A DNA stretch of 64,000 nucleotides, taken from positions 434,001 through 498,000 of the forward strand of contig NZ_AP024861.1 in the NCBI RefSeq assembly GCF_024346755.1. The letters are read 5' to 3'. Below the pieces are notes generated by a model that saw nothing but the letters and a program-made list of their open reading frames with translations, did no database searches and was not told where the DNA came from. The position numbers and the translations under genes are program-made. Positions within the stretch are counted from its first letter, which is position 1, and every line of letters begins with the position of its first letter. The stretch comes from Vibrio aerogenes (GTDB lineage: Bacteria; Pseudomonadota; Gammaproteobacteria; Enterobacterales; Vibrionaceae). This document shows positions 2,047 to 62,477 of the stretch, in pieces.

Positions 2047-4908
2047 TTATAAAGAAGCGATGGTGACTTTCTGTTCTTCCAGTTTCACCAGCGATTCTTT
2101 GTAGCCTTCAAGCTTCTCACGTTCTTTGGCAACCACAGCTTCAGGTGCTTTGGCAACAAATCCCTGATTGTTCAGTTTGCCTTCAATCCGTTTGATTTCA
2201 CCCTCAGTTTTGGCAATCTCTTTACCAAGACGTTCAAGCTCTGCATCTTTGTCGATTAAGCCAGCCATTGGAATCATCAGCTCTGATTTGCCGACTAATG
2301 CAGTGGCACAGGCGGGGAGAGTCTCATCATCAGCAATCATCCGGATACTTTCCAGTTTCGCCAGTGATGTCAGCACCTGTTTGTTCGCTTCCAGACGCGC
2401 TGCGTCAGTTGCATTGTCCGCTTTGAGCATGACATCCAGTGGCTTACCCGGATTGATATCATACTCAGCCCGCAGGTTACGGATGCTGGTGATAAAGGCT
2501 TTGACCCACTCGATATCGTCCAGTGCTTCCTGATGGAAGTTGGCTTCAGTGTACTGTGGCAGCGCCTGAAGCATGATGGTATCGCCTTCGATGCCGTCAA
2601 CCAGTGGCTTCACACTTTGCCAGATGGTTTCGGTGATATAAGGCAGAACCGGATGTGCCAGACGCAGTGTTTTCTCCAGTACAGTAATCAGTGTACGGCG
2701 GGTTGCGCGTTGCTGTGCTTCAGTTCCTTTCCATAAAACAGGTTTGGTCAGCTCAAGATACCAGTCACAGAACTGGTTCCAGATAAACTCGTACAGGGTA
2801 TTGGCTGCCATATCCAGACGGTAATTGTCGATATGGCTGTTAAAACTTTTTGCTGCCAGCTCAAACTGAGACTCGATCCATTTATCTGCCAGTGAATATT
2901 CCAGTTCAGCACCCGCGGCAAAACCGCAGTCTTGCTCCTGTGTATTCATCAGCACATAGCGACTGGCATTCCACAGTTTGTTACAGAAGTTGCGGTAACC
3001 TTCCAGACGCTTCATATCCCAGTTGATATCACGTCCGGTGGATGCCATTGCAGCCAGTGTAAAGCGCAGTGCATCTGTACCGTAGGCTTCAATACCGTTC
3101 TCAAACGTTTTCCGGGTATTCTTTTCAATTTTTGTGGCCAGCTGTGGCTGCATCATGTTACCGGTGCGCTTTTTCACCAGTGATTCAAGATCAATCCCGT
3201 CAATCATGTCGATCGGGTCAATGACATTGCCTTTTGATTTCGACATCTTGTCACCGTTTTCGTCACGGATAAGCCCGGTGACGTAGACGGTTTTAAACGG
3301 TACCTGAGGTTTGCCATTTTCATCTTTCATGAAATGCATCGTCATCATGATCATCCGGGCTACCCAGAAGAAAATGATGTCAAAGCCAGTCACCAGCACA
3401 TCGGTTGGATGGAATGTTTTCAGTTCCGGGGTTTGCTCCGGCCAGCCTAATGTTCCAAATGTCCATAATGCAGATGAAAACCAGGTATCCAGTACATCTT
3501 CATCCTGATTCAGAGAGACGGAAGCGTCCAGGTTATGTTTGCTTCTGACTTCTTCTTCATTGCGGCCGACATACACTTTACCCTGATCGTCGTACCATGC
3601 CGGAATCCGGTGTCCCCACCATAACTGACGGGAAATACACCAGTCCTGAATGTCACGCATCCATGAGAAGTACATATTTTCATACTGCTTCGGAACGAAC
3701 TGGATCTCACCATCTTCAACGGCTTTTGTTGCGACTTCCGCCAGTGGTGCTGCGCGGACATACCATTGGTCAGTCAGCATAGGTTCAATCACAACGCCGC
3801 CACGATCACCGTAAGGAATTGTCAAATCATGGTCTTTGATTTCATCAAGCAGCCCAAGCTGGTCAAACTCAGCCACAATCGCTTTACGTGCCGCGAATCT
3901 TTCCAGCCCCTGATAGTTAGCTGGCAGCTCAGATGAGTAAGCGTCACTTGGTTCACCTTTAGTGGTAAACACTTCAGCTTCCTGACGGACATAAGCATCA
4001 AAGGTGAAAATGTTGATCATGGGCAGACTGTGACGTTTACCGACTTCGTAGTCGTTAAAGTCATGTGCAGGCGTGATTTTTACACAGCCGGTGCCTTTTT
4101 CCATATCGGCATGTTCGTCGCCAACGATTGGGATACGACGATTCACGACCGGTAACATCACATGCTGACCAATCAGGTCTTTATAGCGTGGATCTTCCGG
4201 GTTAACCGCAACACCGGTATCGCCCAACATTGTTTCCGGACGCGTGGTTGCAACGACGATATAATCTTTGCCATCTGCTGTTTTGACACCATCCGCCAGT
4301 GGATAGCGGAAATGCCACATATGGCCTTTTTTGTCTTTGTTTTCAACTTCCAGATCGGAAATTGCAGTATGTAGTTTTGGATCCCAGTTGACCAGGCGTT
4401 TGCCCCGGTAGATCAGATCGTCTTCGTACAAGCGGACAAAGACTTCCTGAACGGCTTTGTAGAATCCATCGTCCATGGTGAATCGTTCACGATCCCAGTC
4501 TACGGAAGCACCTAAACGACGCAGCTGTTTTGTGATGTTGCCGCCGGATTCATTTTTCCATTCCCAGATTTTATCGGTGAAAGCTTCACGACCATAGTCA
4601 TGCTTGGTTTTGCCTTCTTCAGCATCGATTTTACGCTCTACCAGCATCTGAGTTGCAATACCCGCATGGTCCGTACCAACCTGCCATAAAGTATTATGGC
4701 CTTTCATGCGCTGGCATCGGATCAATGTATCCATAATCGTATCCTGGAATGCATGGCCCATATGCAGGCTACCAGTGACATTCGGTGGCGGAATCATGAT
4801 ACTGTATGATGGTTGCGATGTATCACCGTTTGGTTTGAAGTAACCTTTCTCTTCCCAGGCCTGATAAAGGGCCTGTTCAATTGATGTTGGGTTGTATGTT
4901 TTTTCCAT
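2047..4908 (-). CDS. valS: Valyl-tRNA synthetase
   Basis: This class I synthetase charges tRNA-Val with valine in the cytosol and edits misactivated threonine. The class I HIGH motif appears as HMGH within [14 protein letters not shown], and the KMSKS loop is present in [12 protein letters not shown]-terminal coiled-coil arm (about residues 880-950, rich in E, K and L) is typical of ValRS. The frame extends upstream to a TTG at 4920, but the ATG at 4908 gives the expected [12 protein letters not shown] start and has an AAGAG just before it, so 4908 is preferred (953 residues). It lies downstream of holC and pepA, a conserved gammaproteobacterial order. Confidence 0.96.
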
Positions 4909-45968: not shown

Positions 45969-48900
45969 ATGAATAAGCTCGCCGGCCTGTTGGGTCTTTT
46001 AACCGCTTCCGTGTGTGCTCAAACTGTTTCTTATACAGAAACAGTCGGGACGTTGCCTGGAGAACTGAGTATTACTCAGGGAATCGCCTCTTATCAAATA
46101 CCTTTGGAACTACCTGATGGGCGTGGTGGAAATACCCCGCAACTGGCGATTGAATATTCCAGTCAGGTTGACAGTCATTCATCGATGGGCGTTGGTTTTA
46201 CTTTAAGTGGCCTGACATCAATTGGACGTTGCAGTAGCAACCAGTTTACCGATCAGCAATATTTACCGGCAGAAAATAGCCCGCGGGATAAGTTTTGCCT
46301 GAATGGTTCCCGAATGGTTATTGCTGATGGTATCCGGGGCGAAGATGGCTCCGTTTATTTCCTGCAGCAAGATAACCTGACCCGGATTTCACTGACAAAT
46401 AACGCCTCTGATTCTGGCAGTTACTTTGTTGCTAAAACAAAATCCGGTGAGCAGATGACTTATCGTTTTCATACGCAGAGTGGTCTATGGCTGTTAAGTG
46501 AAACAACAAATACGACGCAGACGAATCCAGTGAAGTATACCTATACGGATAACGGAGATATTTCCCGGATTAGTTATGATATTTATCAGGTTGATTTTAA
46601 ATATCAACCCATGCCAAATTCTGATTTTCTGTTATCCCGGAAAAACAAGGTTGGCAAACTCTATTCATCTTCTGAAAGGCTGACCCGCATTGAGCTTTCA
46701 GCCAGTGATACGCTGAAAACTTATTATAAAATTAATTACCAGCCAAAAGGGGAGACTCAGGTTTCCTCAATTGATGGTCATCTTGTTCGCTCTGTTCAGT
46801 ATTGTGACAGCAGCAATCAATGTTTGCCGGCAACCACTTTTACCTGGAACAATATTCAACAGCCGGCAGCAGATCAGGAATTTTTCAGTCAAAGTACTTT
46901 GAATACTCAAATGGGGAACTGGGGTAAGAAGACGCCAGCTGGCTGGAGTGGTTACCCGATTTCATGGTGGACTGATGTGACCGGGAATGGTGATTTTGAT
47001 TTTTGTAAAACAGCATCGTCCGGGATGAATTGCCATTTTAACGTGGCGGGGGAAAACCATGAGATTGCCTTTACTTTAACAAATTGGGGAAGCGCTGACT
47101 CTCATTGGTGGTTGGATCTCAATGGTGATAACAAAAATGAGTATTGCCGGGATGATAATCAACAGTTGGTTTGTACGACTTTTTCACGTGATGGTAGTCA
47201 AAAATCGGACCAATATCCTTTACCTGATCTCGGTGTCAAAGATTATCGTTGGTGGCAGGATATGGATGGTGACGGGGTGACAGAGTTTTGTCGCCGGGTG
47301 ACAACCGATCTGGTTTGTAGTCAACTGGAAAAGCAAGATTCAGGTTTCCTCTGGAAAGACACCCTTCATCTGAAAAATATGACCTGGGAGAAAGGTGCTC
47401 AGGTCAGCTGGGTCGATCTGGATGGCAATGGCAGCCAGGATTTATGCCGGATTGCAACGACAGGTGCAATGACTTGTACCTTGTTCAATGGCACTGAAGT
47501 GAAAGGTGCTCAGGAACGTCATTTTTCATTGACTAAAGCTGGCGCCAGTGACAAGCGATGGTGGGTCGATATCAATGGTGATGGTGCCAGTGATTTATGC
47601 CGCGCAACAAAGAATAGTGCCGGAAAAGAGATTGATTTAACTTGTTCTTATGGTTCTTTGGAGCAGGTTACAGAGCTGAATAATGATTTGGTGCTGGAAG
47701 GTGGCACAGACTGGGCTGGCACCTGGGGAGATACCGGCAAAAGCTGGTGGCAGGATTTCAATCAGGATGGTGTGATTGATTTCTGCCGGGCGATAGGCAC
47801 TCAGGTCTCATGTACGAATATCAATCATGAAAACTATCGGTTTAAGATCACTTCGTGGGGAGATGGCAAACGTTGGTTTTTCGACCTCAATCAGGATAGC
47901 AAACTGGATTTTTGTACCAGTCAATCTGGTCAGCTCAATTGTGCTTCAGCAAGTACGCCTGCCCGTCAGTTTTTATTATCCAAAGTCACAAACGGATTGG
48001 GGATGACCTCTCAGGTCTGGTTCGGTTCTTACGGAGCGCATACGGATCGTACCAAGCTAACACCACCAGAATTGCCGATGCGTTCACTTTCACTTGCCAG
48101 CCAGGTCGCTTACCGGTTGGATGCGGATAACGGAAGCGGAAAAACCAGTTATGTTTTCCGATATGGGCCGTATACTTATCATGGTGCTGGTGAACGAAGC
48201 GGCGGGTTCTCATGGATCATGCAAAGGGAGTTCATTAATGGTAAGAACAGCCGTAACCATTACGTTGAGTTATATACGGCATTCCCTTATACCCAGCGGA
48301 CAAAACATTCGCAGGAATATCTTGCAAATGATGATCAACTTGATGCGACTTGTTCCAAATGTAATGAGGATAGTTTCTGGAACTATCGTCACCTCACATT
48401 GACCAGAGAGTCAGAAACTGCTTTTGGGTATAAAACACAGACACGAACCGGTCAGGCTTATCAGAAATCACAGCTTGAAGTGAATACAAAGGTACAAAGT
48501 CTTGCCAGTAAACCGTATCAGCTGATTCAGTATCAAAATCAATATTATGTAAAGAAACCAGAGATGCATGTGCCGATAGCCGGCTCGATTATCGTGCCGA
48601 TCTCACCATCACCGCAATATTATCTGGCAGAAAATTTTGCAGAAATTTCAGAATTATCTCATGGTGCGAAAGCAACTTTGACGGCTGTATCTCAGGATGT
48701 TGCCGCACAGCTTGCTTTGCAACCGATACAGCAAGAAGTTACTTATATTGTTGATCCTGTTCAATATCAGCAAGTTCTGAGCAATACACCAGTTACTGTT
48801 TCACACGAAACCTATCTGGTTTATGAGACAACCCGCACGGACAAAGAATATGATCTGAGTAAAGACCTGCTCAGAACGATTGTCACATCCAATGAACAGG

Positions 48901-51900
48901 TTGATGATTATGGTAATCCTGCGAAAAGCGTGACTGAGACAACCGGGATCAACCCGGTCAGTGGGGTAAGCGAGTCATATAAGACCGAAGTTGAAAAACA
49001 ATACAGCAATGATAATAGTGCGAAGTGGCTGATTGGTCTTTTGACTCATGTACAAACTACTCATATTCATGCTGATGGCAGTAAAATTGTCCGGTCATTG
49101 GTGAATGAATATGATCCGGACACCGGTCTGTTGCTCAAAGAAACCAAGAACCCAGGGAATTCGTTAGCAGTGACAAAACAATATCACTATAACGATGAAG
49201 GTTTCCCTGAATCTGAAACGATTTCGGCTCAGCAAAACGGAAGTCAGTCCAGCCGGACAACAGCATCATTGCAAAACTTTTCACAGGCTACGCTGACTGA
49301 ATCCCGGACCGATCCTATGGGACACCAGATCCGGACGGTGTTTGATCGGGTCAATAATTTGACTACAATTCGCGATATCAACAACCTTGAATCCCGGATT
49401 TATAAGGATAGTTTCGGTCGTAAGACAGAGATCTGGCAACCAACAACAAATGGATTTGTGAAAACCTATATCAGCTATTTATCAGCATCAGCCAGCCAGT
49501 GTGGTCCGGTGCCATCAGGTGCTGTGTATTGTAAAGTATCACAAACCAGCGGTAAGCCTGATGAAGCTGTTTTCTACGATCTGCTTGATCGTGAAATCCG
49601 TAAGTCACATAAGGCATTGAATGGTAAGTGGGCGATAGTGGATAGCCAATACAATGCGCTGAATCAGGTATTGTCTGTGACACGTGCTTATTATCAGGGC
49701 GATGTGCCACAATATACTTATAATCACTATGATAAATCAGGTCGGCTTGTTTCTGTGTCTGAACCCGGACCCGCGGGTAAAGACAGTAGTTGGGTGACTT
49801 ATACATACAGTCCGTTTGTGAAAGTTAAAACGGATGCAAATGGCAGAAAACATTCAACTTACACTAACGTCATGGGGTGGCAAATTCAGGTTAGTGAGGC
49901 CGAAGGTGGTAAGGTTTCTAAACATTACTACGCCGACGGTTCATTAAAACAGGTGACAGACTCGGGCGGCCATACAGCATCCTTCCAGTACAACATTCAG
50001 GGTAAAAAGATCTACCACAAAGATCCGGATCTGGGTACCTGGACATATGTTTATGATGGATTTGGTCAGTTGCAAAGCGTTACGGATGCAAAAGACCAAA
50101 CGTCTGCGATGACCTATGATGCGCTTGGCCGGATGATAAAACGCACCGAACAAACAAAACAGAGTGGTGAAACGACTAAAAACCGGACGACAATCTGGGC
50201 TTATGATGCTGTTTCAGATAAGAATGGGACCCGCCGCTGGAATGGTGCGTTGCTGCAAAGTGAAGTAAAAGATGAGCTGATCGAGAATTACTACTTTGAT
50301 ACTGCCGGCCGGAAGATTAAAGAAGAACAGATTACGGAAGATCAGACATTTACGCGCTCATTTGAGTATAACACTTTGGGACAATTAGTGAAGGAGACCC
50401 GACCTGATAACTTTACGCTGAACTACAAGCGTGATAACACGACGGGGATCAATACGGAAATCTGGGGAGATATTACTCAGGCACAGGTGAATTTCAGTGC
50501 TGAAGAATATCAACAGGTCATTCTGCCGTTGATTGATCAGGCATTGGCCCGTGCGAAAGATTATCTGCAAAAAGTGAAAGAGCTTCGGGCACAGCAATAC
50601 TTTTATCAGGCGCGTCAGGAGGAATATCAGGCACTTCAGGATCATGTCATTTCTGTTGATGGAGCTTCTGAGAATGCAAAATATGCGCAAAAGATGTATG
50701 CCGAATTACATGGACGTGCATTAGATGTGTATACCGATGAATATGGCGAAGAATATTATAGGGTGCCTGACCGCACTGTTATCGTGAATGGTTCGATGAT
50801 GATTCCGGTTATTCAGTCCCCCCAATTCCATCTTAAGCTGGAAGGCAATGTTTTACGTCAGGTGAGTCTGGAAGAATGGGCAGCCGTTGAAAGCAGCCTG
50901 ACATCTTCTGATAAGGTGGCTTATTACGGTAATTATACGCCGGAAGGTACATCAGGACTGGCAACGTTTACGCTTGACCGGGATGATCCGCTTTATGATC
51001 AACGGATGCGCCAGATGTTCACCCGCTTGAACACACTGGCAAGTGATATTCAGCGTGCTCAGTATGTTCAGGATCATATTAATCAAAAAGCAACCACCTA
51101 TCTGGAAGCGGCAAATCAGTTGGTGAATCTGGTGAAACAGGTCAAACTGGTGTCACAAAAATATCGTTCTTTGACGACGTCGAGTGAGACAGAAGCTGAG
51201 CAGCTGCAAGCATTGAAAGATGATAACCCATCTGCCGGGCGTCTCAGTTACTGGAAAATGAGTGATATGGATGCTGAAGGAAGGATTACAGCTGAGGTTT
51301 ATGGTAACGGGTTGATCAATAGCTATGACTACCATGAAGGCAGTGGTCAGTTACTGAATGTTTCAACCCGTCAGGGAAGTAAGCTGATTCGCTCGCTTCA
51401 ATATACGTATGATCGTATGGACAATGTGACCAGTCGTTACGATATCGTGAATGATATTTATGAAACGTACAGTTATGACAAACTGGATCGCTTAATTTCG
51501 AACCGCCTGACGGGGACAAATGGCAAACATATGGATAATCCACTGTTTAATCAGACGTATACTGTGAAATACAGTACGGGTGGAAATATCGTTTATAAAT
51601 CCGATGTCGGTAATTATCTGTATGCGGATGCTTCTCACGCTCATGCAGTAACGAAAGCTGGTGATGCGACATATACATATGATAATAACGGTAATATGCT
51701 GTCCGGAAATGGAAGAAGCTTTGTCTGGACTGGTTTCAATAAGCCAGAAAAGATGACTTCGGCTGATAGTTGGGCTTCATTCAAGTATGATCAGGACAGG
51801 AAGCGCTACTTTAAGCAAAATAACAACGGTGAGAAAACGTGGTATTTTGATAAATCTTACGAACGTGTTGAAGGAACTGATGGCAAAGTTACCCATAAGC

Positions 51901-53018
51901 AGTATGTTTATGCGGGTGGTCGCCTGATTGCTGTCAATATCGATGTGAAAAAGACCGATGGTGACGGAAATGATGCTTCTGTTGATCGACAGGTTCGTTA
52001 TAGTCATAGTGATGCTTTACAATCAGTAGATATGGTTACCGATATCTGGGGGAACATTGTTACCCGTAAAAATTATGACGCATGGGGTAAATCACGTGCA
52101 TTTGAATGGGCTAAACCGTCTAATTATGTTGCACAGGCGCTGATGATGAACCGGACTTATACCGGCCATGAAGAGGTGACAGAAGTCGGACTGATTCATA
52201 TGAATGGACGGGTGTATGACCCGATACTGGCTCGTTTTATCAGCGCTGATCCTTATATCCAGGCACCGGATAATACGCAGTCTTACAATCGCTATAGCTA
52301 TGTTGTCAATAATCCGATGAAATACTCAGACCCATCGGGGCACTTCTTTAAGAAGTTGTTTAAGAAAGCACGTAAGCTGTTGAAGCGAATTGCTAAAAAT
52401 GTTTATCGGGAAGTATCTAAGAGTAAGTGGGTTAATGATACCCTCAGAGGCTTCTCCTGCTCCGTCGGGATGTTGGGATGTCTGTTATACGATGGGTTTA
52501 TGACGCTTGGGAAAACAGGTTCTTTCACGAAAGCGGGGATATCAATGGCGGCAAGCTTTATTACGTCAGTTTCTGTAGATATCGGAGTTAAGGTAGGGAA
52601 ATGGGTTCAGGAATTAGCGCTGAAAGCATCACCATATTTGAGTAAAGCGGTGAATGCAACTTTGTCATGGACAGGGATGGATAAACTCGTCGGTCTGTTT
52701 ACCGATAAAAATGTCGGGAATCTGGCCTCGAAAGCAGCTGTATATGGTGCTTACAAAGGATCGAGTAAATTTGTCACTAAAGAGCTCAATAAACTGGCAG
52801 ATTCGATGAAGAAAAATGCGAATTCGACTGAGACTGGTACGATTGCCCATGCGAGAAGCATGATAGCTTCTGCGGCTTCTATAACCAGTTCGCGTGGTGT
52901 TTCAGCGCAGCAGAGTCGTTCTCAATCAACGGCCGCTTCAGCCAGAACCAATCCATTGTCGGTATATGACACAACGACAAGTTATCAGCAGGATGTGCAG
53001 AGAGCCGCGGCAGGCTAG
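45969..53018 (+). CDS. Exported SpvB/TcdB-like RHS-repeat protein with variable C-terminal tip
   Basis: A 2349-residue polymorphic toxin-like protein. A Sec signal peptide (residues 1-18, cleaved near VCA-QT) precedes an SpvB/TcdB-type domain (about 35-320; ASYQIPLELPDGRGGNTPQL, MGVGFTLSGLTSIGRC). Next come seven repeats of a WWxDxxGDGxxDxCR unit with a second Cys (about 330-660), and a TcdB-like middle region (NGLGMTSQVWFGSYG). YD/RHS repeats (about 1020-2090) are interrupted by a helical insert (about 1500-1770). The RHS core ends with GRVYDPILARFISADPY and DPSGH near residue 2125. The last 220 residues, starting with a Lys-rich stretch, are the presumed effector tip and match no family I know. 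Such shells encapsulate C-terminal toxins in Tc complexes. No obvious immunity gene follows. Confidence 0.9.
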   Translation: MNKLAGLLGLLTASVCAQTVSYTETVGTLPGELSITQGIASYQIPLELPDGRGGNTPQLAIEYSSQVDSHSSMGVGFTLSGLTSIGRCSSNQFTDQQYLPAENSPRDKFCLNGSRMVIADGIRGEDGSVYFLQQDNLTRISLTNNASDSGSYFVAKTKSGEQMTYRFHTQSGLWLLSETTNTTQTNPVKYTYTDNGDISRISYDIYQVDFKYQPMPNSDFLLSRKNKVGKLYSSSERLTRIELSASDTLKTYYKINYQPKGETQVSSIDGHLVRSVQYCDSSNQCLPATTFTWNNIQQPAADQEFFSQSTLNTQMGNWGKKTPAGWSGYPISWWTDVTGNGDFDFCKTASSGMNCHFNVAGENHEIAFTLTNWGSADSHWWLDLNGDNKNEYCRDDNQQLVCTTFSRDGSQKSDQYPLPDLGVKDYRWWQDMDGDGVTEFCRRVTTDLVCSQLEKQDSGFLWKDTLHLKNMTWEKGAQVSWVDLDGNGSQDLCRIATTGAMTCTLFNGTEVKGAQERHFSLTKAGASDKRWWVDINGDGASDLCRATKNSAGKEIDLTCSYGSLEQVTELNNDLVLEGGTDWAGTWGDTGKSWWQDFNQDGVIDFCRAIGTQVSCTNINHENYRFKITSWGDGKRWFFDLNQDSKLDFCTSQSGQLNCASASTPARQFLLSKVTNGLGMTSQVWFGSYGAHTDRTKLTPPELPMRSLSLASQVAYRLDADNGSGKTSYVFRYGPYTYHGAGERSGGFSWIMQREFINGKNSRNHYVELYTAFPYTQRTKHSQEYLANDDQLDATCSKCNEDSFWNYRHLTLTRESETAFGYKTQTRTGQAYQKSQLEVNTKVQSLASKPYQLIQYQNQYYVKKPEMHVPIAGSIIVPISPSPQYYLAENFAEISELSHGAKATLTAVSQDVAAQLALQPIQQEVTYIVDPVQYQQVLSNTPVTVSHETYLVYETTRTDKEYDLSKDLLRTIVTSNEQVDDYGNPAKSVTETTGINPVSGVSESYKTEVEKQYSNDNSAKWLIGLLTHVQTTHIHADGSKIVRSLVNEYDPDTGLLLKETKNPGNSLAVTKQYHYNDEGFPESETISAQQNGSQSSRTTASLQNFSQATLTESRTDPMGHQIRTVFDRVNNLTTIRDINNLESRIYKDSFGRKTEIWQPTTNGFVKTYISYLSASASQCGPVPSGAVYCKVSQTSGKPDEAVFYDLLDREIRKSHKALNGKWAIVDSQYNALNQVLSVTRAYYQGDVPQYTYNHYDKSGRLVSVSEPGPAGKDSSWVTYTYSPFVKVKTDANGRKHSTYTNVMGWQIQVSEAEGGKVSKHYYADGSLKQVTDSGGHTASFQYNIQGKKIYHKDPDLGTWTYVYDGFGQLQSVTDAKDQTSAMTYDALGRMIKRTEQTKQSGETTKNRTTIWAYDAVSDKNGTRRWNGALLQSEVKDELIENYYFDTAGRKIKEEQITEDQTFTRSFEYNTLGQLVKETRPDNFTLNYKRDNTTGINTEIWGDITQAQVNFSAEEYQQVILPLIDQALARAKDYLQKVKELRAQQYFYQARQEEYQALQDHVISVDGASENAKYAQKMYAELHGRALDVYTDEYGEEYYRVPDRTVIVNGSMMIPVIQSPQFHLKLEGNVLRQVSLEEWAAVESSLTSSDKVAYYGNYTPEGTSGLATFTLDRDDPLYDQRMRQMFTRLNTLASDIQRAQYVQDHINQKATTYLEAANQLVNLVKQVKLVSQKYRSLTTSSETEAEQLQALKDDNPSAGRLSYWKMSDMDAEGRITAEVYGNGLINSYDYHEGSGQLLNVSTRQGSKLIRSLQYTYDRMDNVTSRYDIVNDIYETYSYDKLDRLISNRLTGTNGKHMDNPLFNQTYTVKYSTGGNIVYKSDVGNYLYADASHAHAVTKAGDATYTYDNNGNMLSGNGRSFVWTGFNKPEKMTSADSWASFKYDQDRKRYFKQNNNGEKTWYFDKSYERVEGTDGKVTHKQYVYAGGRLIAVNIDVKKTDGDGNDASVDRQVRYSHSDALQSVDMVTDIWGNIVTRKNYDAWGKSRAFEWAKPSNYVAQALMMNRTYTGHEEVTEVGLIHMNGRVYDPILARFISADPYIQAPDNTQSYNRYSYVVNNPMKYSDPSGHFFKKLFKKARKLLKRIAKNVYREVSKSKWVNDTLRGFSCSVGMLGCLLYDGFMTLGKTGSFTKAGISMAASFITSVSVDIGVKVGKWVQELALKASPYLSKAVNATLSWTGMDKLVGLFTDKNVGNLASKAAVYGAYKGSSKFVTKELNKLADSMKKNANSTETGTIAHARSMIASAASITSSRGVSAQQSRSQSTAASARTNPLSVYDTTTSYQQDVQRAAAG

Positions 53019-53715: not shown

Positions 53716-56700
53716 ATGTATAAAGAATTAGGCTGGATCCAGCAGACTCTGCTTGATCAGTTTCATCACCGTGCCAGTGAAATCGCTTTGCGGGACTGTG
53801 CTTCACTTCCGCATCAAATTTACACCTATCAGGACGTCGAGCATAAAATAAGCATCATTTCTGAATACTTACTCCCGCACTATAGCCAAAGAGCACTGCT
53901 GTTGCTTCCTGGTAGTTCTTATTTTGTGTTCAGTTTTTTAGCCTGTGCGATGTCAGGCGTGACGGCGGTACCGGTCAATCTGCCCGGAGAGAAAAGAATC
54001 CGCCGGGTGAAAACCATGCTGACCCATATCATGAAGGACTGCGATCCGAAAATTATTCTCGCCATGTCTTCATCCAGAGAAAGTATTGAATCACTGGGAT
54101 GGAATCAGGAACGGCAGGTTATCTATCTGGATGAATTATTTGAAACTCATCAGGGGTTCTCACTCACCCAAACGATGTTCCGGGCGCCGGTTGCACCCGT
54201 TATGCTGCAATATTCGTCGGGGTCGACCGGGGTACCGAAAGCGGTGTGTAATTATGATAAAAATATCATGAATCACCATCACTTGATGGTCAGAATGAAT
54301 GCTGCTGTTGACGGTATACATACGGCAACATGGTTGCCTTTTTATCATGATCTCGGATTGTTTTATGGCTTATTATTTCCGCTTTTCTCCGGCGGGAGCT
54401 GTACCTTTATCCGGCCAAGTCAGTTTGTTGCGGATCCGTTGTCATGGTTGTCTCTGATTGGACAATATAAAGCAACGATTATTACAGCGCCCGACTTTGC
54501 TTATCGTTTATGTGTGGATGCCGTTGATGAAAAAGAGGTTCCCGGACTTGATCTGTCCAGCCTGCAAGTCGCCTTAACCGCGGCAGAACCGATCCGGCCT
54601 GAAACCGTTGACCTGTTTCAAGACTACTTCCGCCCGGCAGGCTTTACCCCGGACATGTATATGACCGGTTACGGCATGGCAGAAGCCACACTGGTGGTCA
54701 GTTATAAAAAAATCGGCGCACCGATGATTCGCAAAACGTTTGATGAAAAAGCACTGGCACAGGGGATTGCCAAAGAGACGCCACAGGGCCGGGAATTGAT
54801 TGGCTGCGGTAAAGAATTTGGCAGCTGGGATTTGAGAATTGTGGATCCGGATACCTGTCTTCAGTGTGAAGCGGGTCAGGTGGGTGAAGTCTGGATGAGC
54901 GGTGAATGTTTACCCGCAGGGTACTGGAATCAGCCAGAGCTGACAGCAAGTGTCTATCAGGCAAAACTGGCCGGGCAACCCAGTGATAAGCACTATTTAC
55001 GGACCGGTGATTTGGCTTTTCTTCTTGAAGGTGAGCTGTATATTTGCGGACGAATTAAGGATGTGATTATTGTGGCGGGTGAAAACCATATGCCCAATGA
55101 CATGGAAGCGACCATTGAAAAATACTGTGAGCTGGTAGATATCGGTGGTGCCTGCTTTGTTCAGGATACTGAGACCGGCGATATCAATAGTATTTGTGAA
55201 GTGCACCGTCATACGCCTGAAGAATATCTGGAAAGTCTGGCTCAGGATATTTACGCCCGGGTGCGTCAGCATCATCACTTGCTGGTGTCCCAAGTCATTC
55301 TGATCCCCAAAGGCCACCTCAAAAAAACTTCCAGCGGTAAAATCCGCCGCCGTCATATGCTGATGGATCTCAACAATGAGACATTGAATGTTTTATATCG
55401 TGCATCATTTAATGACATCAACAAAGAAGAGATTGCCCTTCGCACAGCAGACGGGAAGAGCGCAGAACCTGATTTCATTCTGTCGTCACTAAAAGCCGTG
55501 CTGGGAGAAGAGATTATCGATGAAAAACAGGGTTTTGCAGATCTGGGTGTGACCAGCCTTGTCGCTGCCCAATGGTGTCGGCAGCTGGCCGGACATTATG
55601 GGTTGTCCATGTCTCCGACGATCCTGTTTGCTTACCCGAATGTAAAAGCACTCCGCCAGTGGATCCATTCCCGTCTCCCATCTCAAGCGACAGAACAGTC
55701 GTCAGTTTCGGCCAGAAATCAGCAGGTTGCTGTGGTTGCAATCAGTTGTCGTTTACCCCGTCAGGAAGCAGACTCATCCTGGCGTGACTATGCTGACTGG
55801 CTGATGAAAGGTGAGTGTGCCGGAAAAATGCTGGCTTCGGATGATCGCCAGTTTTCCCTGCCGGTCGGCTATCTCGAAGATGTGGATAAGTTTGATGCCC
55901 GTTTCTTTGGTCTTTCTTCTCAGGAAGCCCGGTTGATGGATCCACAACAGCGTTGGCTGATGGAACTGGGCTGGCATCTGTTTGAGCAGGCCGGGTGGTC
56001 TCCTGCACAAATCAAAGGACAAAAATACGGCATTTATATTGGTCAGGGCAGTCAGGACTACAGCGATATGGTCGTCAGCCAGAATCATGAAAAGTTTGCC
56101 AAAGGGTATTTTGTCACCGGGAACTCCCGAAGTGCGGCGTCCGGCAGACTGGCGAAATACTTTGGACTGAGAGGTCCGGCAGTCACGATTGATACGGCTT
56201 GTTCTTCTTCTTTGGTGGCCATTGATGCCGCGGTGAAATTCATTCAGTCCGGTAGCGGTAATACCGCCATTGCCGGTGGGGTGAACTTTCTGCTTTCAGC
56301 ATCGAATGAACAGGCATTGATCAGCGCAGGCATGCTCTCTCCGGATGGTTGTTGCTCAACACTCAGTGAGCAGGCCAATGGCTATATGCGCTCCGAAGGG
56401 GCCGGATTAATCCTGCTGAAAAGTTATGATGCTGCGGTTGCTGATGGCGACCCCATCCTGGCTGTGATAGAAGCCAGTGCCGTCGGGCAGGATGGTGAGA
56501 GCAGCAGCCTGACTGCGCCCAATCCTTTAGCGCAGGGGGCAATGGTTCAGGATGTTCTGGAACAAAGTGGCTTATCGGTTGATGATATTGATGCCGTTGA
56601 AATGAACGGCACCGGCACAGCGTTGGGGGATTCGATTGAATTGCATGCGCTCGACAGTGTGTATAGCCACCGTCAGAAAGCGTTGAACTTAACCACCTTT

Positions 56701-59700
56701 AAGCCTCAGCTGGGGCACTTTGAGTCAGCTTCGGGCGTGGTTGGGGTGATTCATGCTGTCGCGCAGATGCACCAGCAACACTTGTTTGCTCATCCGGGCT
56801 TTACCCGCTTCAATCCGCACTTGTCGGAATGGATGTCCCGCTATGCATTCAGTCGTCATGTGCGTCCTGAGAAACTCAGCCGGATGGCTGTGAATGCGTT
56901 TGGATTTACCGGCACACTGGCTCATTTGATCTTGCGTCATTATCCACAGGATTCAGACTGGCCAGAGGCGGGGCAATCGCAAACCGATCTGTCAGAAACG
57001 GATCTATCAGAAACGGATCTGTCAGACACAGATCAGCAGTCAGCTGCGGGTTCGTCGCAGCCGCCATTGCGTCAACCGACGGTGAACCGTTTCCCGCTGA
57101 CCGCAGCCAGTGAACACAGCCTGCGTGCTCTGGCGGCACGCTGGAAATCACTGTTACAGCATCAGCCTGATACGATGCATCAGCCGCTGATACAGGCCTG
57201 GTTATGTAAACGGGAGCACGGATTGCCGGTCCGGGTGTGTCTGAAATATGCAGATGTTGCTGACCTGACGGCACAACTCGATGAAATCGCCTGTGGCATT
57301 TTGCCGGACAGTCAAACCGCCGGTTCTGAGGTGGAACTCTGGTTGCAGGGAGAGCACTATGACTGGTCAGCTTCTGTCAGCTATCCGATTTTCCCGGCAA
57401 CGGTCATCAACTTATTGCCTTTGTATCCTTTCTGCCGGGAGCGTTACTGGATTGAGTTGCCTGAAGCAGCTGGTGCTGTTGATTCACTGGGCGCCGTGGC
57501 TGAAGCTGCCGTGGATGGGCATGCATTTATCACCCGCTGGCTGAAAGAGGCGCTGGATATTGAGACAGACACGCTCTCTGATCAGGACAATCTGATTAAT
57601 CTGGGACTGAATTCTGTTCAGCTGATTGATTTTGTCGATGAAGCACGAAAAGCGGGCGTTCATTATGAGCTGGTTCGTCTTTATGAGCATCCGACGATTC
57701 AGGGGTGGCTGTCCCTGTGGCATCAGGAAACGCCGGTCTCAACATCGCAGGTTTGTGCAGAAAACTGCCCGGATGATGTCCTGAGCCAGCCCTTTGAGCT
57801 GACCAATATTCAGCGGGCTTACTGGCAGGGCCGGAATCCTGATCTGGTTCTGGGGGGCGTGGCCTGCCACGCTTATCTTGAATTTAATTGCCCGACGCTG
57901 GATACCGACAGACTCAGCGATGCCTTGAATGCGCTGGTTCAGCGTCACAGTCTGTTGCGGATGAGAATGAATGCAGACGGGGCGGGTTATTTTATTGCAT
58001 ATGAACCGGCCCGGATAACGGTTTACCCGTGGCAGGATCTCAGTGATTCAGAAGCGCAGCAAAAGCAGCTGGAACTTCGGGAACAGTTGCAAAGCAGAGT
58101 ACCTGATTTGCGTACGGAGCCGGGATTTGCGGTTTGTGTCAGCCAGACAGCGCAGGGAAGCCGTTTGCATGTTGATGTTGATATGGTGATTGCTGATGCC
58201 ATGAGTATTGAAATTCTGCTCGATGATCTGGCCGGTTTCTATACGCATCCTGAAACGACTCAAGCGGTGGAACCCACGGTTCATTTCCCTGAATATTTGC
58301 ACGATATCCGGACAACAGGCGGCTCTGATGTCGATCAGGCGTACTGGGAAGCTCAGATTCCGGACCTGCCCGGTGCACCGGCACTACCGCTGGCAGTCCG
58401 GCCGGAGCAAACCGGAAAGCCCCGCTTTGTTCACCGGCAGTGGCAGTTACCGGCTACCCGGTGGACGGCATTGCAACAGGCCGGTTATCAGCACCAGATT
58501 ACACCATCGATGCTGTTGGCCGCTTGTTTTGCTGAAACCCTCCGCGGCTGGAGCGATCACCGGGAGTTCTGCCTGAATCTGACGATTTTTAACCGTCGTC
58601 ATGAAACGCTGGACATTGCCGATATGGTGGCAGACTTCACCACACTGATGCTGCTTGCCTGTCGTCCTTCGGCTCAGGATACCCTGCTGGACAATGCCCG
58701 TTGCTTAAATGAAACCTTTATGGCCGGGCTGGATCATGCCCGTTTTGATGCGGTCAATGTGCTGCGGGAAATGTCGCGACAGTCCGGTACTCAGGTCATG
58801 ATGCCGGTGGTCTTTACCAGCAATATTGGTCATGATTTCCTCCCGGATTATCCGTTCGGAAAAATTGATTATGTGGTTTCTCAGACACCGCAGGTCTGGC
58901 TGGATTGTCAGGTCCGGCAGGACGACGGCAATCTGGTGATCAGCTGGGATTCTGTGGATGAACTGTTTCCTGAGCAGATGATCGATCACATGTTTGACTT
59001 TATGGGGCGCTTAATCACGTCGCTGGCTGAACAGCCTGAACGATTATCTGAACCGGTTCATGCCTTCCTGTCAGACGAACAACTCGAACAACGCTTTGTC
59101 AATAACCAGACAAATCTGATACCGCTTCATCACCGGACGCTGCATGGACGTTTCTTCGAATGGGCTGAGTCTCATCCCGGCCATATCGCCCTGATTGACG
59201 AGCGGGGTTCTCTGACCTATCAGGAACTGGCGGAAAGGGCAACCGGGCTCGCATATCGTCTGTATCAGCATGATGTGTGTGTCGGCGACCGGGTTGCTGT
59301 CATTCTGCCGAAAGGACGGGAGCAAATCATCGCAACACTGGCCGTGCATGTGGTTGGGGCTGCTTATATACCACTGGATAAAGAACAGCCTCAGCAGCGC
59401 ATTCAACAGATCATTGCTCAGGCATCTCCCCGCTGTCTGGTGGCCGACAGCAGTGCAGAAAGTTATTCTCTGCCCGTGATTGATATTGCAGATACCGGCG
59501 CAGCAAGACTCGAGCAACCCTGCTGGCCGAGGTTCTGGCCGGGCAATGTGGCTTATATCATTTATACATCCGGCTCAACCGGTGTACCGAAAGGGGTTGT
59601 CACGACGCATCAGGCCGCAGCCAATACCATTGACGATATGATTGTTCGCCTCTCACTGAATCCATCGAGCCGCTCGTTTGCATTGTCAGCACTGAATTTT

Positions 59701-60972
59701 GATTTATCCGTGTTTGATATCTTTGCGCCTCTGGCTGTCGGCGGGGCGGTTGTCGTGCCGGCAGAAGCGGACCGTAAGGAAGCCCGGTGCTGGTTAGAGA
59801 TGATCAATCAGCATCAGGTCACGGTCTGGAATTCGGTGCCTGCATTGTTTGAAATGTTGTTAATTGCAGCAGAAAGCAGCGAAGTATGGCACTTGCCGGA
59901 GACATTAGAGCACGTGTTACTTTCCGGTGACTGGGTCGGACTGGATCTGTATCCGCGTTTGCATCAGCAGAACCCGCAGACAAAATTGCTTGCTTTAGGT
60001 GGTGCAACCGAAGCGGCTATCTGGTCCAATGCATTTCCTGTTTCGCAGGTTGATCCGCAGTGGCGCAGTATTCCTTATGGTTATGCGTTGAGTCACCAGT
60101 CTTACCGGGTGATGGATGAACAATGCCGGGATTGTCCGGACTGGGTCATCGGCGAGCTGTGGATTGGTGGTGAAGGCGTCGCGCAAGGTTACTTTGGCGA
60201 TCCGGAGAAAACCGCAGCTCAGTTTGTCGTGCATGAAGGTCAGCGGTATTACCGGACCGGAGATACCGGCCGTTTCTGGCCCGATGGCGTGGTTGAGTTT
60301 TCCGGCCGTCGTGACAATCAGGTGAAAGTGCACGGGCACCGTATCGAACTTGGCGAAATTGAGCATGTTGCATCTGCTGTTCCGGGGATTCAAAAAGCGC
60401 TGGCGCTGGTCACCGACGCGCCGTCAAAACAGATTCTGCTGTTTGTGGAAACCGATGACCCGGCAATTCAGGCACAGTTAACAGAAGACTATATGCCGGT
60501 GCCGGAACATGGATTTTCATCACAGGAGAAAGCATTGGTTGCACCGGTACTGAGAGCGCAGCTGCCGGACTATATGTTGCCACAGCACATCGTCTTATGC
60601 CGGAAAATTCCGCTGACGGCGAACGGCAAGCTTGACCGTAAGCAGCTGACCGTGATTGCTCAATCGATTGTTTCTGACAGTCAGCAGCATGAATTCGTCG
60701 CGCCTTCAAGCCCTGAAGAGATGCTGCTGACACAGGCGCTGACTCAGGTGCTGTCCTGGCCTAAACCGCTGAGTGTGACTGATAATTTCTTCTCCATTGG
60801 CGGGGATTCACTGACGGCGATGCAGCTGACGTCTGTACTGGAAAAGCAGCATGGTGTGATCTTGTCGCTGCGCACGATTTTCAATCATCAGACCATCGCC
60901 CGGATTGCTCAATCTATAGAGATTCCGCAGTCAACGGATGCGGGTGTCGAGTATGAAGAAGGGGCGCTTTAG
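53716..60972 (+). CDS. Hybrid PKS/NRPS: FAAL-ACP-KS-ACP-Cy-A(Cys)-PCP
   Basis: A 2418-residue assembly line. Residues 1-570 are a fatty acyl-AMP ligase (YSSGSTGVPKAV near 166, WLPFYHDLGL, MTGYGMAEATL). ACP1 has phosphopantetheine Ser614. The ketosynthase (about 670-1080) has Cys829 in DTACSSS and His1001 in LGHFESASG, but Asn964 where the HGTGT His should be. A post-KS linker ends LPLYPFCRERYW, with no acyltransferase. ACP2 has Ser1300. The cyclisation domain (about 1360-1790) has the Cy-type DxxxxD (Asp1489, Asp1494) instead of HHxxxDG. The adenylation domain (about 1807-2290) reads D-L-F-N-L-S-L-I-W in its pocket, one residue from the cysteine code DLYNLSLIWK. The final PCP has Ser2365 in GGDSL. 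No ketoreductase, thioesterase or terminal reductase is present. Predicted product: a fatty acyl-cysteine-derived thiazoline on the PCP. Release must occur in trans. Confidence 0.92.
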   Translation: MYKELGWIQQTLLDQFHHRASEIALRDCASLPHQIYTYQDVEHKISIISEYLLPHYSQRALLLLPGSSYFVFSFLACAMSGVTAVPVNLPGEKRIRRVKTMLTHIMKDCDPKIILAMSSSRESIESLGWNQERQVIYLDELFETHQGFSLTQTMFRAPVAPVMLQYSSGSTGVPKAVCNYDKNIMNHHHLMVRMNAAVDGIHTATWLPFYHDLGLFYGLLFPLFSGGSCTFIRPSQFVADPLSWLSLIGQYKATIITAPDFAYRLCVDAVDEKEVPGLDLSSLQVALTAAEPIRPETVDLFQDYFRPAGFTPDMYMTGYGMAEATLVVSYKKIGAPMIRKTFDEKALAQGIAKETPQGRELIGCGKEFGSWDLRIVDPDTCLQCEAGQVGEVWMSGECLPAGYWNQPELTASVYQAKLAGQPSDKHYLRTGDLAFLLEGELYICGRIKDVIIVAGENHMPNDMEATIEKYCELVDIGGACFVQDTETGDINSICEVHRHTPEEYLESLAQDIYARVRQHHHLLVSQVILIPKGHLKKTSSGKIRRRHMLMDLNNETLNVLYRASFNDINKEEIALRTADGKSAEPDFILSSLKAVLGEEIIDEKQGFADLGVTSLVAAQWCRQLAGHYGLSMSPTILFAYPNVKALRQWIHSRLPSQATEQSSVSARNQQVAVVAISCRLPRQEADSSWRDYADWLMKGECAGKMLASDDRQFSLPVGYLEDVDKFDARFFGLSSQEARLMDPQQRWLMELGWHLFEQAGWSPAQIKGQKYGIYIGQGSQDYSDMVVSQNHEKFAKGYFVTGNSRSAASGRLAKYFGLRGPAVTIDTACSSSLVAIDAAVKFIQSGSGNTAIAGGVNFLLSASNEQALISAGMLSPDGCCSTLSEQANGYMRSEGAGLILLKSYDAAVADGDPILAVIEASAVGQDGESSSLTAPNPLAQGAMVQDVLEQSGLSVDDIDAVEMNGTGTALGDSIELHALDSVYSHRQKALNLTTFKPQLGHFESASGVVGVIHAVAQMHQQHLFAHPGFTRFNPHLSEWMSRYAFSRHVRPEKLSRMAVNAFGFTGTLAHLILRHYPQDSDWPEAGQSQTDLSETDLSETDLSDTDQQSAAGSSQPPLRQPTVNRFPLTAASEHSLRALAARWKSLLQHQPDTMHQPLIQAWLCKREHGLPVRVCLKYADVADLTAQLDEIACGILPDSQTAGSEVELWLQGEHYDWSASVSYPIFPATVINLLPLYPFCRERYWIELPEAAGAVDSLGAVAEAAVDGHAFITRWLKEALDIETDTLSDQDNLINLGLNSVQLIDFVDEARKAGVHYELVRLYEHPTIQGWLSLWHQETPVSTSQVCAENCPDDVLSQPFELTNIQRAYWQGRNPDLVLGGVACHAYLEFNCPTLDTDRLSDALNALVQRHSLLRMRMNADGAGYFIAYEPARITVYPWQDLSDSEAQQKQLELREQLQSRVPDLRTEPGFAVCVSQTAQGSRLHVDVDMVIADAMSIEILLDDLAGFYTHPETTQAVEPTVHFPEYLHDIRTTGGSDVDQAYWEAQIPDLPGAPALPLAVRPEQTGKPRFVHRQWQLPATRWTALQQAGYQHQITPSMLLAACFAETLRGWSDHREFCLNLTIFNRRHETLDIADMVADFTTLMLLACRPSAQDTLLDNARCLNETFMAGLDHARFDAVNVLREMSRQSGTQVMMPVVFTSNIGHDFLPDYPFGKIDYVVSQTPQVWLDCQVRQDDGNLVISWDSVDELFPEQMIDHMFDFMGRLITSLAEQPERLSEPVHAFLSDEQLEQRFVNNQTNLIPLHHRTLHGRFFEWAESHPGHIALIDERGSLTYQELAERATGLAYRLYQHDVCVGDRVAVILPKGREQIIATLAVHVVGAAYIPLDKEQPQQRIQQIIAQASPRCLVADSSAESYSLPVIDIADTGAARLEQPCWPRFWPGNVAYIIYTSGSTGVPKGVVTTHQAAANTIDDMIVRLSLNPSSRSFALSALNFDLSVFDIFAPLAVGGAVVVPAEADRKEARCWLEMINQHQVTVWNSVPALFEMLLIAAESSEVWHLPETLEHVLLSGDWVGLDLYPRLHQQNPQTKLLALGGATEAAIWSNAFPVSQVDPQWRSIPYGYALSHQSYRVMDEQCRDCPDWVIGELWIGGEGVAQGYFGDPEKTAAQFVVHEGQRYYRTGDTGRFWPDGVVEFSGRRDNQVKVHGHRIELGEIEHVASAVPGIQKALALVTDAPSKQILLFVETDDPAIQAQLTEDYMPVPEHGFSSQEKALVAPVLRAQLPDYMLPQHIVLCRKIPLTANGKLDRKQLTVIAQSIVSDSQQHEFVAPSSPEEMLLTQALTQVLSWPKPLSVTDNFFSIGGDSLTAMQLTSVLEKQHGVILSLRTIFNHQTIARIAQSIEIPQSTDAGVEYEEGAL
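56984..57033 (+). repeat. In-frame 15-bp tandem repeat in the synthase linker
   Basis: Three units of the type ggatctgtcagaaac encode repeated TDLSE/TDLSD between the KS and its linker domain (about residues 1092-1106). It is an acidic, flexible spacer. Confidence 0.8.
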
Positions 60973-61167: not shown

Positions 61168-61211
61168 AACATTCAGGGAAGATTTTTGTCCATTCAATGA
61201 AAAGGAGTTGT

Positions 61212-62477
61212 ATGAAGCATACAAACTATTCCCGGAGACGATGGCTGATATTAACAGCCGGATGTTTTATCAATTTATGTATCGGCTCAATGTATGCGTG
61301 GAGTGTTTTTTCTGCGCCTATGGCTGATTATTTGAGCCAGTTAAACGGAACGCAGCTGACAGCGGCTGATTTGGCGATTGTATTTGTGGTTGCCAACTCA
61401 GTCGGGCCGGTGACCATGATTTCAGGTGGCCGGATTAATGATATGTTCGGGCCAAAGCTGGTGATTCTTGTCGGCGGGCTGATGTTTGGCGGCGGGATGG
61501 TATTTTCCGGTTTCGCAACCAGCATCACGCATCTGATCGTTGGCTATGGATTGTTAACCGGCCTTGGGCTGGGCATGGTCTATGGCGCGACGATCAGTAC
61601 GTCGATCAAATTTTTCCCGGACAAACGGGGTTTGGTGGGCGGATTGAGTACGGCATTATTCGGCATCAGCTCGGTGATTATTCCGCCGGTTGCAGCTGCG
61701 ATTACCCGTCACATGGGCATTCTGTCTTCTTTTAAAATCATTGGCATTGCGTTTACCGTCATTGTTTGTGTCAGTGGATTTTTTATTGATAAATGCCCGG
61801 ACGGATTCAAACCGGATGGCTGGAGACCACCACAGAAATCAGGGGACACACATCAGGAAAACTTCACCTGGAAGCAGATGCTGGGAACGCCGACGTTTTA
61901 CATCTTGTTGGTGCTGCTCACCTGCGGGGCCGTCGCCGGGCTGATGTGTATCGCACTGGCTGCGCCACTGGCCAGGCAGATGATAGGAATGTCAGTGGCT
62001 TCTGCGACTGCTGCTGTGTCAACACTGGCTTTGCTGAATGTCTCCGGCCGGGTTGCTGCGGGGGTGCTTTCCGATAAAATCGGCCGGGTCAACACGCTGG
62101 CGCTGGCCTGTGTGCTTTCTGTGGCTGGCTTGTATCTGTTGTATATCGCCGGGCAGGGCGATGTGAAGACATTCTACGCAGGTATCTCTGTAATTGGGGT
62201 CTGCTTCGGTGCTTTTATGGGGGTCTTCCCCGGATTAACGGCCGATCAGTTCGGGACCAAACATAACAGTGTCAATTTTGGCATTATGTTCTGTGGCTTT
62301 GCGATTGCCGGTTACGTCGGCCCGACCATCATGCGACAAGTCTTCGATGCGACCGGCAGTTTTAAAGGCGCATTCTTAATCGGCATCGGGTTCTGTCTGG
62401 CCGGGTTTGTACTGACCGGTATTTATCATCTGCTGCATCAGAAAGCCCGGCGGATGAAAGTGGCTGCGGAGCATTGA
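61212..62477 (+). CDS. MFS transporter, oxalate/formate antiporter (OFA) family
   Basis: A 421-residue carrier of 12 helices. LILTAGCFINLCIGSMYAWSVFSAPMADYL at the N-terminus and the loop GRINDMFGPK, with FPDKRGLVGGLSTALFGISS, are typical of OFA-family MFS proteins. Family members move small carboxylates such as oxalate, formate or pyruvate. The preferred ATG at 61212 follows AAGGAG; an upstream in-frame ATG at 61197 is less likely. It lies 239 bp after the assembly-line gene, and a role in exporting its product is possible but unproven. Confidence 0.87.
   Translation: MKHTNYSRRRWLILTAGCFINLCIGSMYAWSVFSAPMADYLSQLNGTQLTAADLAIVFVVANSVGPVTMISGGRINDMFGPKLVILVGGLMFGGGMVFSGFATSITHLIVGYGLLTGLGLGMVYGATISTSIKFFPDKRGLVGGLSTALFGISSVIIPPVAAAITRHMGILSSFKIIGIAFTVIVCVSGFFIDKCPDGFKPDGWRPPQKSGDTHQENFTWKQMLGTPTFYILLVLLTCGAVAGLMCIALAAPLARQMIGMSVASATAAVSTLALLNVSGRVAAGVLSDKIGRVNTLALACVLSVAGLYLLYIAGQGDVKTFYAGISVIGVCFGAFMGVFPGLTADQFGTKHNSVNFGIMFCGFAIAGYVGPTIMRQVFDATGSFKGAFLIGIGFCLAGFVLTGIYHLLHQKARRMKVAAEH

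Follow-up and report, generated by a model that had tools for sequence, protein, structure and literature searches.

The closest described system is MicC, of the micacocidin and massiliachelin pathways, which is likewise primed by a FAAL and continues through a KS into a heterocyclising cysteine module. Figure legends in two papers (PMC6604713, PMC10291242) name the domains of proteins of the MicC type as FAAL, ACP, KS, AT, KR, C, A, MT, and PCP. A review of FAALs (PMC11837247) lists micacocidin (C6:0), and the available portion of its text makes no mention of thiazol, cysteine, the Cy domain, or pyochelin.

Pyochelin (PchE/PchF) is the other close comparison; its line starts from a salicyl group bound to an aryl carrier protein, in the place where the protein described here has FAAL-ACP-KS-ACP. 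Several further clusters resemble the present one in their accessory genes. These are the sorangibactin, coelibactin, mupirochelin, and equibactin clusters. A saccharopine-dehydrogenase-family gene occurs among them (SrbE, MchE, EqbM; the likeness to the dehydrogenase gene beside the partner is one of family name), an imine reductase is present in the sorangibactin and mupirochelin clusters, as it is beside the partner protein presented below, and sorangibactin and coelibactin use a TE with a Cys nucleophile, as does this partner (GYCMG). Two of them have starters of another kind, an N-terminal phenol in sorangibactin and salicylate in mupirochelin, and the excerpts examined on these two mention no KS. 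For sorangibactin, the available part of PMC10127202 reports the Cys TE and describes SrbE as indispensable, with a function that its authors call unknown.

The window analysed here, i.e., the whole stretch of 64,000 nucleotides of Vibrio aerogenes, contains an open reading frame of 2418 aa (53716-60972, + strand) that runs from ATG to TAG with zero internal stops. This synthase gene is neither a chance frame nor an assembly artefact, since a second genome of the genus (G167) carries an intact homologue of 2407 aa, 84% identical in the FAAL-KS part and 83% identical over the full length. Its features and its downstream neighbour are as follows:

53716..60972, + strand: whole synthase, FAAL-ACP-KS-ACP-Cy-A-PCP-tail, 2418 aa (Pfam, G167 homologue)
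53716..55440, + strand: FAAL-like ligase, about residues 1-575 (AMP-binding and fatty-acid--AMP ligase models, PDB)
55468..55695, + strand: ACP1, about residues 585-660, Ser614 (PP-binding, GVTS motif)
55720..56976, + strand: KS without AT, residues 669-1087, Cys829/Asn964/His1001 (Pfam, alignments, motif scan)
57073..57465, + strand: KS-ACP linker without AT, terminating in LPLYPFCRERYW (alignment)
57508..57750, + strand: ACP2, about residues 1265-1345, Ser1300 (Pfam, alignment, motif scan)
57781..59070, + strand: Cy domain, DxxxxDxxS at residues 1489-1497 (PDB matches, motif scan)
59128..60651, + strand: A domain of cysteine type that lacks the long insert seen in long-form relatives (Pfam, alignment)
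60703..60915, + strand: PCP, Ser2365, nearer the last than the first PCP of the long form (Pfam, sliding identity, motif)
60943..60969, + strand: tail GVEYEEGAL at the C terminus, a putative SLiM that would dock on a TubC_N/beta-hairpin docking domain (alignment, tail scan)
61197..62477, + strand: putative exporter of the MFS transporter family (the gene adjoining the G167 homologue is 90% identical)

The domain order FAAL-ACP-KS-ACP-Cy-A-PCP, which the original prediction had read from the letters of the window, is borne out by Pfam, NCBIfam, PDB matches, and a motif scan. The Pfam families listed at E≤0.001, nine in all, include two AMP-binding stretches, the N and C halves of a KS, three PP-binding domains, and one Condensation-family domain; none of the nine is an AT, KR, DH, ER, TE, or reductase family, in agreement with the predicted lack of AT, KR, and TE in this protein. 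The fatty-acyl-activating start is supported as FAAL-like. Several NCBIfam fatty-acid--AMP ligase models match strongly within residues 27-552 (the best ones over 36-551), although with scores below their whole-protein cut-offs, as would be expected for one domain of a long protein. Among the PDB entries that align inside residues 35-568, the best are 3kxw, titled 'Saframycin Mx1 synthetase B', and 7r7e/f/g, titled 'Polyketide synthase'; we take both to be FAALs. The carrier serines found by the motif scan are Ser614 in ACP1, Ser1300 in ACP2, and Ser2365 in the PCP. The heterocyclisation domain is a Cy rather than a C domain, as had been proposed: the DxxxxDxxS motif is present (D1489MVIAD1494AMS), the condensation-type HH...D motif finds no match in the synthase, and PchE and the HMWP2 Cy domain (7ry6) are among the PDB matches. 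Overall, the best PDB matches are PchE (7emy, residues 1283-2234), which is the nearest to the Cy-A module, and BmdB (7ly4, residues 1356-2402). The predicted cysteine type of the A domain is supported: in the alignment with PchE, the two A domains agree at the specificity positions as placed here, read as DLFNLSLIWK.

The KS carries the motifs TAC829SSS, N964GTGT, and GH1001. In the alignment of seven family members, the His of HGTGT is replaced by Asn in the window and G167 proteins only, the other five reading HGTGT. PMC4661987 regards an altered His at this position as what marks a KS as non-elongating (KS0), and by this motif the KS of the window protein looks non-elongating, as originally suggested. 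The terminal stretch of the KS-ACP linker aligns to CurL 896-937 and to 7zma 560-600. Unlike MicC, the synthase has neither an AT nor a KR nor an MT-type domain, and its KS carries NGTGT; an alkyl-salicylate ring is therefore not expected from it. Moreover, since AT and KR were looked for and are absent among the Pfam families listed, it is not a micacocidin-type protein in the strict sense. Three plasmid proteins of MicC-type look (H1-H3) are its top three tblastn matches, with 36-39% identity in the KS; by Pfam, H1 combines AMP-binding, PP-binding, KS, AT, KR, Condensation, and MT domains.

The novelty suggested for this order stands in part. No paper with exactly this domain order was found among the titles and abstract starts of the open-licence literature, nor did this literature yield a paper that brings together thiazolidine, alkyl, siderophore, acyl-AMP ligase, and cysteine. 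On the other hand, published drawings of MicC show an identical start to which AT, KR, and an MT-type domain are added, and the synthase is therefore a variant of known thiazoline machinery and not a new class.

The original prediction had also presented the synthase as a single-protein line whose product nothing releases, and neither point is supported. A genome-wide search returned a sole TubC_N match for the window genome (C1:2472626-2472775, E=6.7e-16), at the head of an 1836-aa TubC_N-Cy-A-MT-PCP-TE protein whose locus lies about 1.98 Mb from the start of the synthase (C1:487716). This distant partner carries the TE. Its locus (L030) includes the following features:

L030:9272-14782: TubC_N-Cy-A-MT-PCP-TE partner, terminal TE with GYCMG (motif scan)
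L030:8163-9275: Rossmann dehydrogenase, 370 aa, Pfam Sacchrp_dh_NADP and Epimerase (Pfam)

The motifs of the partner include a Cys-type A domain, LEIGAGVGG in the MT, and GYCMG, i.e., a Cys nucleophile, in the TE. It is also adjoined by a 373-aa Irp3-type thiazolinyl imine reductase and a 294-aa thioesterase. The domain order of PchF and PchG offers the comparison for the partner and its Irp3-type neighbour. Taken over the two NRPS proteins, the gene content is of pyochelin type, with what two Cys heterocycles would require, an MT, an imine reductase, and a TE; unlike the pyochelin system, the line has no epimerase-type insert, occupies two loci, and relies on putative docking between a tail and a TubC_N. 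The two halves are also about 2 Mb apart in G167, where the partner is 86% identical. A line may thus be split over two chromosomal sites 2 Mb apart, which cluster-finding software would show as two incomplete orphans. The partner locus lies between phage tail genes and a partial Mutator-family transposase (L030:15734-19887 and 3778-4173), a hint as to how the halves separated. The TE of Vibrio sp. HI00D65 also has a Cys nucleophile (GFCMG).

Scanning the contigs of named genomes with three aligned homologues gave five loci, in Vibrio chagasii LC2-408, Vibrio sp. HI00D65, Halomonas colorata FME66, Erwinia sp. JUb26, and Pantoea coffeiphila 1480. All five encode a longer homologue (3785-3885 aa), the end of which runs into the beginning of the gene that follows. 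In four of these long forms (V. chagasii, Halomonas, Erwinia, and Pantoea), Pfam lists three AMP-binding, one KS, two Condensation, and four PP-binding domains, and lists no AT. For HI00D65, Halomonas, Erwinia, and Pantoea, Pfam assigns TubC_N, Condensation, and AMP-binding domains to the product of this next gene (for the last three, on the 735-787 aa up to the locus end). The corresponding V. chagasii protein aligns with residues 5-1809 of the partner, and dehydrogenase, Irp3-like, TE, ABC-transporter, and PPTase genes lie downstream. The five long forms thus likewise show the arrangement FAAL-ACP-KS without AT-ACP-Cy-A, with a docking-type tail and a TubC_N protein next to it, and it is this adjacency, together with the tail of the synthase and the distant sole TubC_N protein of its genome, that speaks against the single-protein reading.

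The long forms differ from the window protein in their second Cy-A-PCP, their long A-domain insert, their intact HGTGT, and, in four of them, the presence of a TonB receptor. This receptor gene is directly upstream in V. chagasii, HI00D65, Erwinia, and Pantoea; for Halomonas, no receptor-sized gene is found in the 10 kb upstream of the long form. Sliding identity against V. chagasii and Halomonas pairs residues 1358-2307 of the window protein with module 1 and residues 2308 onward with the last PCP; the short form is thus without one PCP-Cy-A stretch and without the long A-domain insert. An MT-like domain scores weakly in the long forms of V. chagasii (29.2 bits) and Halomonas (29.8 bits), against a cut-off of 30, and is not listed by Pfam in those of Erwinia or Pantoea. 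In the available part of PMC6604713, the presence or absence of an MT-like domain predicts a D or L thiazoline. Because the epimerase-type insert is absent, the thiazoline of the window line is predicted to be L-configured, as far as the insert corresponds to the MT-like epimerase.

All seven synthases of the family end in a similar acidic tail: EEGAL in the window and G167, EEGTL in V. chagasii, HI00D65, Erwinia, and Pantoea, and EEGSI in Halomonas. The seven dehydrogenases do so too (TEEGFL in the window genome and G167, FEEGAL in V. chagasii and HI00D65, FEEGVL in Halomonas, TEGEL in Erwinia and Pantoea), and they share this tail type although pairs of them go down to 22% identity (one item, G188_736, with 17 stops and cut by the locus end, was left out of this comparison). 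In the window genome, V. chagasii, Halomonas, and Erwinia, Pfam calls these dehydrogenases Epimerase, Sacchrp_dh_NADP, or both; for V. chagasii and Halomonas the match is to Epimerase, with none to the saccharopine-dehydrogenase model. Among 185 ORFs with a length of 250 aa or more in the loci examined, ends of the form [ED][ED]Gx[LIV] occur in 11 rows, i.e., 10 distinct proteins, since the window tail was entered twice: eight are synthases or dehydrogenases of the synthase family, one is an NRPS of another genus genome (G011), and one is a Nostoc protein. The G011 NRPS with such a tail precedes an NRPS whose match to the partner begins at residue 3. By sequence, an acidic C-terminal tail is found on the donor and a TubC_N on the acceptor, as expected for a SLiM-betaHD pair.

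According to PMC9113145, contact with the docking domain is confined, in a solved complex, to the final five residues of the SLiM, charged residues are ubiquitous at this end, and SLiMs occur on oxidases too, so that a tailoring enzyme with a docking tail is known in principle. On the other side, SLiM contacts are reported to be promiscuous, and one system could do without them in vivo (PMC9113145, PMC13324335). The tail common to synthase and dehydrogenase in this family is an observation of the present analysis, and it provides a clue to the role of the dehydrogenase, whose family name SrbE also carries.

The FAAL-ACP-KS part is matched at E≤1e-100 in 5 of 227 genus genomes: the window's own (G000), G167 (84% identity), V. 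chagasii and Vibrio sp. HI00D65 (G084 and G188, 55% each), and G230 (35%). Among 369 genomes of the class, seven besides the window's own match at E≤1e-120, all with 32-35% identity. In the partner search, two candidates were scored per genome; matches at E≤1e-120 occur in 27 of the 227 genus genomes, and full-length ones (query 1-1836 or 5-1809) in four of these, namely G000, G167, G084, and G188. The same four genomes hold both the full-length partner and a FAAL-KS of at least 55% identity, a coincidence with a probability of 9.3e-9 if genomes were independent, the four coming from two lineages only.

In view of the tail, of the orphan partner with its TubC_N, and of the adjacency in relatives, we favour as probable a reading in which a FAAL-primed thiazoline line that follows pyochelin-like logic is spread over two proteins and two loci. 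The synthase would be its first half, with putative docking and cooperation between the halves. From the observed gene content, motifs, conservation, co-occurrence, and adjacency in relatives, we infer its reactions, its docking, the cooperation of its loci, and its product as follows. A free fatty acid would be adenylated by the FAAL and loaded on ACP1. The KS, devoid of the HGTGT His, would take the acyl group on Cys829 and pass it to ACP2 with no malonate added. The A domain would load Cys on the PCP, and the Cy domain would condense and cyclodehydrate it, giving a 2-alkyl-thiazoline-4-carboxyl-S-PCP. This thioester had been proposed as the product of the line; it is a fair description of the PCP-bound intermediate, but not of the end product. 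The EEGAL tail would then dock on the TubC_N of the 1836-aa partner, where a second Cys would be added, cyclised, and methylated. Finally, the Irp3-type reductase would reduce one ring, the Rossmann dehydrogenase, by its similar tail, would act at the same docking site as the synthase, and the partner TE would release the product through its Cys nucleophile.

The likely end product consists of a 2-alkyl-thiazoline and, linked to it, a second ring that derives from Cys and is methylated. With hydrolytic release and pyochelin-like chemistry, a saturated Cn acid would give C(n+7)H(2n+10)N2O2S2. The formula of pyochelin served as an arithmetic check, and the same calculation with salicylate as the starter returns it. 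The results point to a family of putative fatty-acid-primed thiazoline lines in Vibrio, Halomonas, Erwinia, and Pantoea, and we found no described product for them.

The role of the line in the cell probably derives from that of a siderophore. A present siderophore role is weakened by the receptor search, as no close match to the V. chagasii TonB receptor was found in G000 (best 27%) or G167 (25-27%). Moreover, no Fur-box-like site upstream of either half stands out over 200 simple base shuffles. The best scores (out of 19, with the number of the 200 shuffles reaching them) are 11 (196) and 11 (188) for the window and G167 synthases, and 12 (86) and 11 (180) for the G000 and G167 partners. They are 12 (142) and 12 (143) for the V. 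chagasii and HI00D65 receptors, 9 (197) for the V. chagasii gap, 15 (0) for Halomonas, 14 (14) for Erwinia, and 14 (11) for Pantoea. A tentative extension, possible though doubtful, is that a siderophore line was recast as a non-siderophore lipo-heterocycle line through linked losses (the KS decarboxylation His, one Cys module, and the receptor), with a dehydrogenase that mimics the synthase tail so that the two take turns at one docking domain.

The gene that follows the synthase on the same strand allows another path to a finished compound. The synthase could act alone, its PCP-bound 2-alkyl-thiazoline carboxylate being freed by hydrolysis, spontaneous or through a type II thioesterase, and exported by the MFS transporter; the pairing with the MFS gene is kept in G167, and thioesterase-family genes are present in short frames elsewhere in the genome. 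We regard this as unlikely: the docking-type tail is present in seven of seven family members, a TubC_N-Cy-A protein lies directly downstream in five relatives, and the partner, with the sole TubC_N, would be left without an evident donor.

The Cy domain could also be given a different substrate, if the KS elongated the acyl chain with malonyl-ACP2 charged in trans. The Cy domain would then receive a beta-ketoacyl group and form a 2-(2-oxoalkyl)-thiazoline, whose enol oxygen would replace the pyochelin phenolate, and a stand-alone 349-aa AT-family protein at C1:2.894 Mb is a possible malonyl source. For the long forms, elongation is plausible, since all five of their KSs keep the Cys, the HGTGT His, and the second His, while Pfam reports no AT for the four long forms to which it was applied. 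For the window and G167 proteins it is improbable, as the change of this His to Asn is of the kind read as a KS0 mark. Long and short forms together constitute a natural experiment on a KS that loses elongation and turns into a transfer station. In a KS tree of 25 rows (23 different sequences), six KSs of the synthase family form one clade (support 100/100) on a long branch, and the tree gives this clade no firm position among KSs with or without AT. Two readings are compatible with the tree: the KS may have arisen by AT loss from a MicC-type line or may descend from a trans-AT line.

A decaying relic, i.e., a gene drifting after the loss of a module, of its operon partners, and of the receptor, would account for the absent PCP-Cy-A stretch, the altered KS motif, the lack of a close receptor, and the phage tail genes and partial transposase near the partner, but is improbable, as each half keeps an open frame of full length in two genomes (83-86% identity) and the carrier serines and the motifs of the Cy and A domains are preserved.

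The gene immediately upstream of that for the synthase encodes a 2349-aa Rhs/YD-repeat protein (45969-53018, + strand), and an ORF of equal length occupies the same position by the G167 homologue. Beyond the MFS gene come a flavodoxin-fold protein on the opposite strand and then a LysR regulator. In the G011 genome, the NRPS with a docking-type tail belongs to a cluster with an AMP-binding ligase and a chorismate-binding enzyme; this NRPS is a 3308-aa triple-module protein ending in FEEGSL, and the second NRPS that follows it has a NAD_binding_4 (reductase-type) domain. The window genome (5.37 Mb, three contigs) has PPTase-family genes at two places and also contains a second FAAL-KS-AT-type hybrid line (C2:714-754 kb, with a 4897-aa frame), which is 32% identical to the synthase over the FAAL-KS part.
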